Shown here: one piece after another, positions 4,844-23,199 of the stretch
How the letters are laid out: each line of letters opens with the position of its first letter
Numbering within the stretch: the first letter of the stretch is position 1
Origin: Cyclonatronum proteinivorum
Lineage (GTDB): Bacteria; Bacteroidota; Rhodothermia; Balneolales; Cyclonatronaceae
Length of the DNA stretch: 64,000 nt
Assembly: GCF_003353065.1 (NCBI RefSeq)
Contig: NZ_CP027806.1
Location: forward strand, 248,001-312,000
Reading direction: 5' to 3'
Notes under the pieces: model-generated
Told to the model about the DNA's origin: nothing
Seen by the model: the letters and a program-made list of their open reading frames with translations, nothing else
The model's database searches: none
Position numbers and translations under genes: made by a program

Positions 4844-6730
4844 ATGTCATCACTATTTTCCAGGTATAATGTAATTGTTATCGGCGGGGGGCATGCCGGG
4901 AGCGAAGCGGCAGCTGCTGCTGCACGGATGGGCATGCGTACCCTGATGATCAGCATGAACCTGAACGCTATTGGTCAGATGTCCTGTAACCCCGCGATGG
5001 GCGGTGTTGCTAAAGGTCAGCTTGTCCGTGAAATCGATGCCCTCGGCGGTATCTCTGGCATCGTTAGCGATCAAACCGGGGTGCAGTTCCGCATGCTTAA
5101 CCGGAGCAAAGGCCCTGCGATGTGGTCGCCCCGTGCGCAAAGCGACCGCATGCTGTACGCCCAAAAAATCCGCGAACAGCTCGAAGCTATTCCCACGCTC
5201 TTCTTCCGTCAGGACAATGTAGTGCACATCCTGATCAACGAAAAGAAGGAAGCCTACGGGGTTGTAACCCAAACCGGACAGGAAATCTACGCGGATGCCG
5301 TCATTGTTACGAGCGGCACGTTTCTGAACGGACTCATCCATATTGGCGAAAAAAACTACGGCGGCGGACGCTCAGGCGAGCGCGCATCCAAAGGTATCAC
5401 TGAGTGCCTCGAAGCACAGGGCTTTGAATCCGGGCGGCTCAAAACCGGAACCCCTCCCCGGCTTGACGGCCGCACCGTGAATTACGACAAGCTCGAAATT
5501 CAGTATGGTGATGAGGACCCCTCCCCTTTTTCCTTTATGACGGACAAGCTGCCTTCGATCGAGGAACAACTCAGCTGCTGGATCGGCTACACGAGTCCGG
5601 AGGTACACGAGGTCCTGCGCGGGGGCTTTGACCGCAGCCCGATGTTCAACGGCGCGATTCAGTCAACGGGTCCCCGCTACTGCCCGAGCATCGAAGATAA
5701 AATCAACCGCTTTGCCGACCGGGACCGCCATCAGCTCTTTCTTGAGCCGGAAGGCTGGAACACCTACGAGATGTACCTCAACGGCTTCTCGACGAGCCTT
5801 CCGGAGGATGTGCAGTACAATGCCCTGCGCACCATCGCTGGTTTTGAGGATGTGATGATGATTCGTCCGGGCTATGCGATCGAGTACGATTACTTCCCGC
5901 CGCATCAGATTCACCGCAACATGGAAACCAAGCTTGTTGCCAACCTCTTCTTTGCCGGGCAAATCAACGGCACAACCGGGTACGAAGAGGCGGCCTGTCA
6001 GGGACTCATGGCGGGCATCAATGCCGCGCGCAAAGTCCGGGGCGAGGATGAGCTTGTGCTCTCCCGTTCGCAGGCCTACATCGGCGTACTGATCGACGAC
6101 CTCGTGAACAAAGGCACCGAAGAGCCTTACCGCATGTTCACTTCCCGGGCGGAACACCGCATCCTGCTGCGTCAGGACAATGCTGACCTTCGCCTCACCC
6201 AAATCGGTCATGAAATCGGTCTTGCTACCCCCGAGCGGTACGAGCGCTACACGAAGCGCCGCGAAGACATCGATCATCTGATGAAGATGTTCACCGATCA
6301 CAGTGTGCGGCCCGAGGTTTACAACAGCCTGCTCGAATCCCTCGGCACAACGCCGCTGCGTCAGACGATCAAGTTCCCGAACCTCGTAACACGTCCGGAG
6401 CTGAGCCTTGCGCAAATGCTGGAGGTTGACGCCGAACTCAAAGCTAAAGCTGAGGCTATCACAACATCCAAAACCGAACTTGAACAGTGCGAAATACAGT
6501 TCAAGTATGCCGGGTACATCCAAAAAGAGTACGAAATGGCGGATGAAATGAGCCGGAAGGAGAACATGCGCATCCCTGAAAAAATCAACTATGACGGGAT
6601 TCACAGCCTCTCCACGGAAGGCCGCCTGAAGCTGATGAAGGTGAAACCGGAAACCATAGGTCAGGCCGGACGCATCAGCGGCGTGTCGGCAAGTGACCTC
6701 GCGGTACTCATGGTCTATCTCAAAAATTGA
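4844..6730 (+). CDS. mnmG: tRNA uridine-5-carboxymethylaminomethyl modification enzyme MnmG (GidA)
   Basis: A 628-residue FAD-dependent enzyme that, with MnmE, installs the cmnm5 group on wobble U34 of several tRNAs. The N-terminal dinucleotide fold VIVIGGGHAGSEAA (about residues 10-23), the MSCNPAMGGVAKG signature (about 46-58), the FAD/folate-region GLKTGTPPRL-type motif (here RLKTGTPPRL, about 198-207) and the C-terminal LMVYLK end are all present, and length is typical. It is followed by rsmG, the classical gidA-gidB pairing often close to replication origins. A terminator-like hairpin separates the two genes, so rsmG may have its own promoter. Confidence 0.97.
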   Translation: MSSLFSRYNVIVIGGGHAGSEAAAAAARMGMRTLMISMNLNAIGQMSCNPAMGGVAKGQLVREIDALGGISGIVSDQTGVQFRMLNRSKGPAMWSPRAQSDRMLYAQKIREQLEAIPTLFFRQDNVVHILINEKKEAYGVVTQTGQEIYADAVIVTSGTFLNGLIHIGEKNYGGGRSGERASKGITECLEAQGFESGRLKTGTPPRLDGRTVNYDKLEIQYGDEDPSPFSFMTDKLPSIEEQLSCWIGYTSPEVHEVLRGGFDRSPMFNGAIQSTGPRYCPSIEDKINRFADRDRHQLFLEPEGWNTYEMYLNGFSTSLPEDVQYNALRTIAGFEDVMMIRPGYAIEYDYFPPHQIHRNMETKLVANLFFAGQINGTTGYEEAACQGLMAGINAARKVRGEDELVLSRSQAYIGVLIDDLVNKGTEEPYRMFTSRAEHRILLRQDNADLRLTQIGHEIGLATPERYERYTKRREDIDHLMKMFTDHSVRPEVYNSLLESLGTTPLRQTIKFPNLVTRPELSLAQMLEVDAELKAKAEAITTSKTELEQCEIQFKYAGYIQKEYEMADEMSRKENMRIPEKINYDGIHSLSTEGRLKLMKVKPETIGQAGRISGVSASDLAVLMVYLKN

Positions 6731-6748
6731 CCGAAATTGCCTACCTTT

Positions 6749-6787
6749 AAGCGCCGGAGCAGCACGTCTGTTTCGGCGCTTTTTTTA
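6749..6787 (+). terminator. Rho-independent terminator after mnmG
   Basis: A GC-rich stem (AAGCGCCG pairing with CGGCGCTT) with a loop of about 20 bases, followed by a run of T residues. It starts about 19 bases after the mnmG stop codon. It argues against the earlier in-frame rsmG starts within or just after the hairpin. Confidence 0.75.
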
Positions 6788-6830
6788 TTTTATGACGGAT
6801 GATGACCTGACTGTCCAAACCCTTTTCTCC

Positions 6831-7493
6831 ATGATGCCTCACAAAATAGTACCCAAATTTTTCTCAGACGAAATGCTCGAATCGGTCAACAATCTGATTG
6901 AAGCCAACGAGCCGCTGCTCAGTCAATATGCCGAACAATTGCTGTGGTGGAATGAAAAAGTGAACCTGCTCAGCCGCAACTCCGACATGAAAGCGGTGGA
7001 GAAGCACATCGTACACAGCTTGTTTTTAGGTGTAGTCGGCAGCTTCGCCCGTGAAAAAGCATTCGTGGATATCGGCAGCGGCGGCGGACTCCCGGGTATC
7101 CCGCTCGCGATTTGCTTTCCGGAGAAAAAGTTTGAGCTGCTCGACCGCACCGCCCGCAAGTGCGCAGCGATGAACGACATGATTGGTCAGCTGGACCTGA
7201 AAAACGCAACGGCACATCACACAGAAGCCGCTATGTTTCACGTGAAACATGAAAGTTTTGGCTGGACAAGCAAACACGCCATTAAGCTCAGCGAGTATGC
7301 AGGTCTGAGCGAAAAGTATCCTGCGGCCAAAGGCTATTTCCTAAAGGGCGAGGACTACAAGGAGGAACTAAAGGAAGTAAATCTCCCTCTGAAGGTGCTC
7401 GAATTCAAAATAGACGATTATCTGACGGATCCTTTTTATGACGGGAAACGGGTCCTGATTCTTCAGCAGCTCAACGAGACGGAGAACAGCTAA
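6831..7493 (+). CDS. rsmG: 16S rRNA (guanine-527-N7)-methyltransferase RsmG (GidB)
   Basis: A SAM-dependent methyltransferase acting on G527 of 16S rRNA. The WNEKVNLLSR segment and the SAM-binding motif DIGSGGGLPGIPLA are clear. I chose the ATG at 6831 (220 residues) over those at 6693 and 6792, because the former overlaps mnmG and the latter sits 5 bases after the mnmG terminator; 220 residues also suits the family. The C-terminal third is divergent, and its MFHVKH peptide is encoded by a perfect parS site (7234-7249). That DNA element probably constrains the protein sequence there. Confidence 0.92.
   Translation: MMPHKIVPKFFSDEMLESVNNLIEANEPLLSQYAEQLLWWNEKVNLLSRNSDMKAVEKHIVHSLFLGVVGSFAREKAFVDIGSGGGLPGIPLAICFPEKKFELLDRTARKCAAMNDMIGQLDLKNATAHHTEAAMFHVKHESFGWTSKHAIKLSEYAGLSEKYPAAKGYFLKGEDYKEELKEVNLPLKVLEFKIDDYLTDPFYDGKRVLILQQLNETENS
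7234..7249. promoter_or_regulatory. parS centromere site (ParB/Spo0J binding) inside rsmG
   Basis: TGTTTCACGTGAAACA is an exact match to the widely conserved 16-base palindromic parS consensus of chromosomal ParABS systems. It is embedded in the rsmG reading frame, where it encodes MFHVKH. parS sites cluster around replication origins, so it supports an origin-proximal location for this window. Confidence 0.92.
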
Positions 7494-8547: not shown

Positions 8548-8585
8548 GAAAAAGGGGATGTTTCACGTGGAACATCCCCTTTTTC
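8548..8585. terminator. Bidirectional terminator hairpin with parS at its centre
   Basis: A 38-base palindrome with 19-base arms and a single imperfect pair (T8563/G8570, a G-U wobble in RNA). An A-run precedes and a T-run follows, so it can terminate transcription in both directions between the convergent WYL regulator and patatin genes. The centre is the parS-like sequence at 8559-8574. Confidence 0.85.
8559..8574. promoter_or_regulatory. Second parS site, within the terminator
   Basis: TGTTTCACGTGGAACA differs from the perfect parS palindrome at one position, a variant commonly seen in functional parS sites. It is 1325 bases from the perfect site inside rsmG. The combination of two sites in 1.3 kb makes chance occurrence very unlikely. 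Confidence 0.88.
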
Positions 8586-21263: not shown

Positions 21264-21719
21264 TTAGTCAGGATTTTTCTCTCTGTCGATGATGATGGTG
21301 ACGGGACCATCATTCACAAGTTCAACCTGCATCATAGCGGCAAATTCCCCGGTTTCTACTTTTCCTGCGAAATTTGAGCGGGTATAGCTCACAAAATAAT
21401 CATACAGCGCTTCAGCTTTATCCGGCTGTGCCGAAGCAATGAAGCTGGGCCGGGTTCCTTTCCTGACATCACCATAAAGCGTGAACTGCGATATGATCAG
21501 AATGCTGCCCCCGGTATCCTGCACGGAGCGGTTCATCTTTCCCTGATCATCCGGAAATATGCGGAGTCGCATCATTTTATCAGCCGCCCACTCCGCTTCT
21601 GCCTTTGAATCCGTTTGATGCACGGCTGCAAGCACAAGTAAACCGGGTCCGATCTGACCCGCAATTTTGCCTTCAATGGTTACCGAAGCCGACGATACGC
21701 GCTGTACTACAAGTCTCAT
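21264..21719 (-). CDS. dtd: D-aminoacyl-tRNA deacylase
   Basis: 151 residues from the ATG at 21719 (MRLVVQRVSSASV, the canonical start); a 26-codon upstream extension in the frame lacks family similarity. The enzyme frees D-amino acids mischarged onto tRNA. The SQFTLYGD and NDGPVT (Gly-cisPro) motifs of the active site are both present. It is the first gene of the leftward dtd - metalloenzyme - thrC set and its promoter would lie within or beside the candidate origin (21840-22110). Confidence 0.95.
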   Translation of the reverse strand: MRLVVQRVSSASVTIEGKIAGQIGPGLLVLAAVHQTDSKAEAEWAADKMMRLRIFPDDQGKMNRSVQDTGGSILIISQFTLYGDVRKGTRPSFIASAQPDKAEALYDYFVSYTRSNFAGKVETGEFAAMMQVELVNDGPVTIIIDREKNPD

Positions 21720-21839
21720 AACCTCAATTTTAGTGTTGGAAAGTGTGTGGGTAAGTAAGCGGTTTTTCGTGGAAAACCGAAACCCTGATTTTTCCAAAAA
21801 AAGTTATCCTTTGTTTCAAACAGCAGAAATTTCGTTTTC

Positions 21840-22110
21840 CACCGGTATCGAAAAGAAACAGATGTGTTAAGACTTATCGACATTATTTTCAACAAAGGGT
21901 GTCGATAAACGGGTCAAAAATGTGAAGAAGATCGCCAAAAGCAACAAAAACAGTAAGCTGGTTTATCCACAATATTATCCACATATCCACAATTAGTTTG
22001 TGTTTTGTGATGAAAACCACATTTTCCACATATCCACCAAACCTACCACATCTACGAATTTTATAAATTAAATAGCTTAACAGTAGAAATACCCTGTGGA
22101 AAGCTTTTTA
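21840..22110. other. Candidate chromosomal replication origin (oriC)
   Basis: The 472-base gap between divergent dtd and purM contains a cluster of DnaA boxes: exact TTATCCACA at 21963-21971 and 21975-21983; one-mismatch ATATCCACA at 21983-21991 and TTTTCCACA at 22022-22030; and TTATCGACA at 21874-21882 with its reverse complement TGTCGATAA at 21900-21908. A weaker box lies at 22095-22103. An AT-rich stretch (about 22054-22080) follows and could be the unwinding element. Two parS sites lie 13-15 kb to the left, and genes on the two immediate flanks point away from it. dnaA itself is not in the window. Confidence 0.7.
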
Positions 22111-22191
22111 AATTTTAGCTCATTTAGGGCTTACAGATCTTTGAAATGAGCTGTACCTTTTAGAGAACCAAAACCCACATCCAAATCACAA

Positions 22192-23199
22192 ATGAAAAAA
22201 CCGATCAGCTATAAAGACAGCGGTGTTGATGTTCAGGCCGGAGAAGCGCTCGTTCATTCGATTAAATCAATGGTTAAAAAAACACATGGGGTGGAAGTAC
22301 TAAGCAACATTGGTGGATTTGGAGGATTATTCAAACCGGACTTCCGTAACATGAAAAATCCGGTACTGGTAAGCAGCGTTGACGGGGTTGGTACCAAGCT
22401 CATTGTAGCTTTTAAAATGAAAAAATATGATACCGTCGGGCAGGATTTGGTAAACCACTGCGTAAATGACATTGCCGTGTGCGGAGCTGAGCCACTTTTT
22501 TTTCTCGATTACTTCTCAACCGGAAAGCTTAATACCGACACCGGGTTTAAGGTGATCAGCGGATTCGCTAAAGCCTGTCGTGAAAATGGCTGCGCTCTCA
22601 TTGGCGGTGAAACTGCCGAAATGCCCGATATCTATAAAGACGAAGAGTTTGATCTTGCCGGTACCATTGTTGGGGTAGTTGATGAAGAAGAGATCATCAC
22701 CGGTCAAAAAATTAAAAAAGGGGATTTACTCATCGGGCTGCCCAGCAATGGACTGCATACCAACGGCTATTCTTTGGCCCGAAAAGTTTTATTCAGCACG
22801 TATGATGTTCAGGATACGCCGGATGGCTTCGATCAGTGCCTGGGTGATGAGCTGCTGCGCATTCATAAATCTTACCTGCCGGTCATCAGACTGCTAAAAA
22901 AGATGGAAGGCGTGAACGGATTTTCACACATCACGGGCGGAGGAATTATCGGGAATACCAAGCGGATCATACCAAAAGGGCTTAAAGCGGAGGTAAAATG
23001 GAACAGCTGGGAAAGGCCAAAGCTATTTAAACTGATTCAGGAACTCGGAAATGTAGAAGAAGCCGCTATGCAGGAGGCGTTTAATCTCGGAATTGGCCTG
23101 ATAACGGTAGTTTCGGAAAGTGCCGCTGATTCCGTACTTTCAGCCCTGAAAGAAGCCGGTGAAGCTCCGGTAATTATGGGAACAATTACAGAGGCTTAA
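22192..23199 (+). CDS. purM: Phosphoribosylformylglycinamidine cyclo-ligase (AIR synthetase)
   Basis: A 335-residue ATP-dependent enzyme forming aminoimidazole ribonucleotide in purine synthesis. Signatures include YKDSGVDVQAGE at the N-terminus, the SSVDGVGTKLIVAF nucleotide region (about residues 62-75), LIGGETAEMPD (about 136-146) and HITGGGIIGNTKRIIP (about 247-262). Normal length. It points away from the candidate origin and is followed after 65 bases by a small AtuA-like gene in the same direction, probably co-transcribed. Confidence 0.96.
   Translation: MKKPISYKDSGVDVQAGEALVHSIKSMVKKTHGVEVLSNIGGFGGLFKPDFRNMKNPVLVSSVDGVGTKLIVAFKMKKYDTVGQDLVNHCVNDIAVCGAEPLFFLDYFSTGKLNTDTGFKVISGFAKACRENGCALIGGETAEMPDIYKDEEFDLAGTIVGVVDEEEIITGQKIKKGDLLIGLPSNGLHTNGYSLARKVLFSTYDVQDTPDGFDQCLGDELLRIHKSYLPVIRLLKKMEGVNGFSHITGGGIIGNTKRIIPKGLKAEVKWNSWERPKLFKLIQELGNVEEAAMQEAFNLGIGLITVVSESAADSVLSALKEAGEAPVIMGTITEA

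Follow-up and report, generated by a model that had tools for sequence, protein, structure and literature searches.

A probable dtd-linked chromosomal replication origin in Cyclonatronum proteinivorum and the order Balneolales

Based on the evidence assembled in this study, Cyclonatronum proteinivorum very probably has its chromosomal replication origin (oriC) in the divergent intergenic region between dtd and purM, and a site linked to dtd in the same way very probably serves the order Balneolales as a whole. An initial annotation of the 64-kb window analysed here had proposed a candidate chromosomal origin in this gap, and the proposal is supported by the DnaA-box cluster, the GC-skew minimum, the nearby parS sites and the conservation in Balneolales. 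The genome is a single closed contig of 4,294,247 bp, of which the window covers positions 248,001-312,000, and its numbering starts just before dnaA; dnaA itself, at genome position ~0.7 kb, is 270 kb away from the site, in line with the earlier expectation of an origin remote from that gene. An oriC adjacent to dnaA is thus not what is found, the distance being 345-406 kb in four relatives.

The features on which the assignment is built are collected in Table 1. The immediate flanking genes point outward, as had been described. The further remark that genes beyond 23.6 kb mostly point left is correct locally (genome 270-300 kb: 8 right, 11 left), and the majority is reversed when 90 kb are considered (33 right, 22 left); leading-strand gene bias around the site is slight. 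The genes gidA and gidB, which are frequent neighbours of bacterial origins, are also present in the window.

Table 1. Features of the proposed origin and its surroundings (window positions)
Feature	Position	Strand	Details
gidA (mnmG) + gidB (rsmG)	4844..7493	+	Pfam PF01134, PF02527
Exact parS TGTTTCACGTGAAACA	7234..7249		Inside gidB reading frame
parS, 1 mismatch	8559..8574		Intergenic
dtd (D-Tyr-tRNA(Tyr) deacylase), left neighbour	21264..21719	-	Pfam PF02580, E=4.2e-60; start at conserved MRLVVQRV
Divergent intergenic region dtd-purM, proposed oriC	21720..22191		470 bases
Outer left DnaA box TTACCCACA	21746..21754	-	1 mismatch; leftward boxes kept here, TGTGGATTActaTGTGGATTA in large Balneolales family
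Inverted pair TTATCGACA...TGTCGATAA	21874..21908		One mismatch each
Direct-repeat array of three boxes, TTATCCACA, TTATCCACA, ATATCCACA	21963..21991	+	
Tandem boxes of unwinding core, TTTTCCACA + ATATCCACC	22022..22038	+	Consensus TTATCCACATATCCACA
AT-rich unwinding gap, 56 bp	22039..22094		71% AT; 4-nt spacer, then CTA at 22043-22045
Five NTN triplets GTA TTT CTA CTG TTA, possible reverse-facing trio	22078..22092	-	Adjoins inverted box
Inverted terminal DnaA box CTTTCCACA	22095..22103	-	2 mismatches; TTTTCCACA/TTATCCACA in relatives
purM (phosphoribosylformylglycinamidine cyclo-ligase), right neighbour	22192..23199	+	Pfam PF00586/PF02769

Box cluster and unwinding core

When up to one mismatch is allowed, seven DnaA boxes fall within 285 bp (21746-22030) of the dtd-purM gap, which additionally holds two boxes with two mismatches. 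Since the window total of 16 boxes at one mismatch or less is close to the 12.6 expected, without overall enrichment, the signal is one of clustering: finding 7 of the 16 within 285 bp has a Poisson probability of ~3e-13 per place and ~7e-11 over the window, and the intergenic cluster is therefore beyond chance. Each element listed in the initial annotation was recovered, namely the two exact TTATCCACA boxes with 12 bases between their starts (21963 and 21975, +), the two one-mismatch boxes ATATCCACA (21983, +) and TTTTCCACA (22022, +), the inverted one-mismatch pair of TTATCGACA (21874, +; partner at 21900, -) and the AT-rich stretch nearby. The box TTACCCACA at the left lies in the gap and outside the range 21840-22110 considered previously, and the two core boxes ATATCCACC (+) and CTTTCCACA (-), with 2 mismatches each, had been missed. 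The inverted pair TTATCGACA/TGTCGATAA was rejected as a special element, as the nearest relative does not keep it. The pair TTATCCACA-N3-TTATCCACA occurs a single time in the 4.29-Mb genome, even allowing 2 mismatches. Among the stretches examined (eighty 20-kb samples, the genome ends and 180-540 kb without gaps), the site had the highest box score (9), followed by a cluster at 4.262 Mb (7) and by the dnaA region and a location at 180 kb (4 each); the latter is a box pair 244 bp apart, with no further boxes found there.

Alignment revealed a core common to 37 of 41 loci tested (about 32 genomes). It consists, in this order, of tandem TTATCCACA-TATCCACA, 4 nt, up to five CTA repeats, an AT-rich gap and an inverted TGTGG(A/T)AA-like box, with the gap spanning 51-57 bp (61 in one locus) at 62-81% AT. 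In C. proteinivorum, whose genome averages about 49% AT, the AT-rich element adjoins the boxes. Judged from the alignment, the functional core is placed closer to 22022-22103 than to the exact box pair. The consensus of the DnaA-trio is 3'-GAT-5' (PMC6669920), and the CTA repeats, being its complement, match it. A basal unwinding system (BUS) comprises DnaA-box, spacer and 3'-GAT-5' trios, with tandem boxes and a short spacer as the commonest arrangement (PMC8287927); the criterion applied here was a DnaA box, a spacer of ≤16 bp and ≥3 DnaA-trios (3'-NAN-5'). The pattern of box plus CTACTA gave one match at the dtd site in many of 60 relatives; taken alone as an origin marker it was discarded as unselective, its matches in these relatives being no more numerous than those of a reversed control.

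By analogy with characterised origins, initiation at the site can be envisaged as follows. DnaA would bind the direct-repeat and the tandem boxes and be guided from them onto the DnaA-trio triplets in the adjacent 56-bp gap, which would thereby be opened. The replicative helicase would be loaded on the opened gap, with forks departing both ways. At 22095 the gap is bounded by the inverted box, on which another DnaA assembly, facing inward, may be anchored; ParB acting on the parS sites would segregate the new origins.

Conservation, skew and rival positions

Loci of relatives were collected via purM and, independently, via dtd across the phylum, the named relatives in the public collection being Balneolales, Balneolaceae and Balneolia MAGs. 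Among the 30 best-scoring dtd loci, which constitute the phylum-wide comparison, a box cluster stands directly upstream of dtd in all 16 from Balneolales, compared to none of the 14 from other orders or classes. Conservation beside purM or dtd had been named earlier as a check; it is borne out for dtd, and purM proved not to be an invariant neighbour. The distance of purM from the site varies and the gene is displaced in some relatives, which makes dtd the anchor. Position and box layout are both kept.

The cumulative GC skew has its minimum at genome position 267,791 (contiguous 180-540 kb), ~2.2 kb left of the boxes. Outside that range the skew was sampled in 80 stretches of 20 kb, corresponding to 37% of the genome, and these samples bottom in the same broad region, consistent with the minimum anticipated by the initial annotation: cumulative skew drops from about 2.3-2.4 Mb via dnaA to 216-486 kb, then climbs, and the genome-wide sampled peak is near 2.27-2.40 Mb. 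The site is hence located at a skew switch, contiguously within 180-540 kb and by samples elsewhere, in a genome whose GC skew is weak and noisy. A dif-like site TATAATATATATTATGTTAAGT (genome 2,307,636-2,307,657) lies at the skew maximum, roughly opposite the dtd-purM site; the arms it defines, 54:46 for an origin at dnaA as against 47:53 for one at dtd, do not decide between the two.

The two parS sites 13-15 kb from the boxes were confirmed, and a genome search up to two mismatches returned them as the only sites with ≤1 mismatch. Their proximity, a common attribute of origins that is not universal, recurs in relatives: the parS-purM distance is 14-69 kb in 12 of 12 genomes with both on one contig, C. 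proteinivorum included. The usual place of parAB is beside parS. No parB was found near parS or the site, the only ParB_N-family gene being at genome 925,665-925,937, ~656 kb off.

The first rival position is dnaA, with the dtd-purM boxes only titrating DnaA or regulating dtd or purM. We regard this as very improbable. The dnaA region does offer two exact TTATCCACA boxes 98 bp apart upstream of the gene and a third at 4,294,171, and up to four boxes are kept there across Balneolales, nearly all in the same orientation and flanking a conserved TTTGAC before the start codon. However, all nine stretches analysed between dnaA and the dtd site show negative skew. The skew thus does not switch at dnaA, and the intervening segment gives the impression of being copied leftward, starting at the dtd site, rather than rightward from dnaA; moreover, the parS sites are by the dtd site, not by dnaA. 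The three to four boxes at dnaA run one way around the promoter-like TTTGAC element, without an adjacent CTA trio and without an inverted box, and the tandem-box/CTA/inverted-box core was not found upstream of the gene. A stronger box cluster beside dnaA, which the initial annotation had considered decisive against the dtd-purM site, was thus looked for and not encountered (score 4 vs 9, no trio). Autoregulation of dnaA is well known in other bacteria, and from their arrangement the boxes upstream of dnaA probably serve it at the dnaA promoter.

Slightly less probable still are two firing origins, the dtd site together with a second one either in the dnaA region or at the cluster near 4.262 Mb, a possibility that the three box clusters in the genome might suggest and that has been put forward in DoriC for a few bacteria, with loci hundreds of kb apart (e.g., Ralstonia pickettii 12D, 291 kb; PMC4403523), but against which stand the single skew trend across dnaA, the lack of a BUS-like layout at dnaA and the restriction of the 4.262-Mb cluster to the genus, other Balneolales being devoid of it. 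The last-mentioned cluster (genome 4,262,100-4,262,400) follows a metalloprotease gene and comprises six boxes with ≤1 mismatch in the same orientation, including two pairs 11 bases apart. It is kept in 5 of 5 genus members having the metalloprotease gene, and five more distant genomes lack it although they encode a clear orthologue. It may be a DnaA titration or reactivation locus (datA/DARS-like).

Relation to known origins

The dtd-linked origin proposed here shares with the BUS of Bacillus subtilis incC (DnaA-boxes 6/7 and DnaA-trios) the tandem TTATCCACA-TATCCACA, the short spacer, the CTA repeats, the AT-rich gap and the upstream box array. Unlike incC, the Balneolales site is away from dnaA, an inverted box closes its gap at 51-57 bp, and in C. 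proteinivorum the forward trios are mostly lost. As an intergenic box cluster remote from dnaA it resembles the oriC of Escherichia coli (gidA-mioC) and of Caulobacter (hemE), the former also in that gidAB is only 15 kb from the C. proteinivorum site; the neighbours, however, are dtd and purM, and adjacency to gidA/mioC or hemE is lacking. The putative double origins of DoriC likewise combine a box cluster at dnaA with another one far from it (Gao 2015, PMC4403523), whereas here skew and parS mark one locus and the dnaA boxes resemble promoter autoregulation.

Origins remote from dnaA are known from other bacterial groups. Strain Omega, which we take to be Cyclonatronum proteinivorum, is a Balneolota isolate from soda lakes, and neither dnaA nor an origin of replication is mentioned in the main text of the paper describing it (PMC6243061). 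A published origin for Balneolales, or one tied to dtd or purM, was not found in the open literature; DoriC may already hold a prediction. What appears to be new is the dtd-linked oriC throughout Balneolales, while the separation of oriC from dnaA and the type of unwinding core were known already. Tying the origin position in Balneolales to dtd instead of dnaA corrects the practice of starting the numbering of their genomes at dnaA on the assumption that it marks the origin. It also offers an indicator gene where origins are sought in draft genomes or growth rates are estimated from metagenomes.

Variation within the order

Regarding their DnaA-trios, intact in some members and decayed in others, the Balneolales represent a natural series of unwinding cores. 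Most relatives have two to five CTA repeats, which in many of them form a run of 3-5 at offset 4; C. proteinivorum and its nearest relative have a single forward CTA (22043), and the published program needs three. It is conceivable, if unlikely, that the core has switched strand in the family of C. proteinivorum, such that the forward trios decayed and opening proceeds from the inverted box at 22095 via reverse-facing trios; if true, an origin would in this case have flipped the polarity of its unwinding in nature. Reverse-side runs number 4-6 triplets in seven members of the family and 1-2 in nearly all other loci. When this one locus is shuffled, the run of five in C. proteinivorum does not reach significance (P 0.17), runs of 4-6 are reached by 5-25% of single-sequence shuffles, and conservation of the purM promoter could explain the similarity of the reverse-side triplets.

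In a single Balneolales family, the large one, and not in C. proteinivorum, a conserved motif AAAAAGAATAACTTTT is present to the left of the unwinding core at a distance of ~173 bp, possibly as the site of an origin-binding protein; at some of these loci it sits within a dyad. Lastly, the dnaA-purM distance is 270-406 kb in all five genomes in which it could be measured (both genes on one contig), a similarity that looks as if the spacing of dnaA and the origin were kept.
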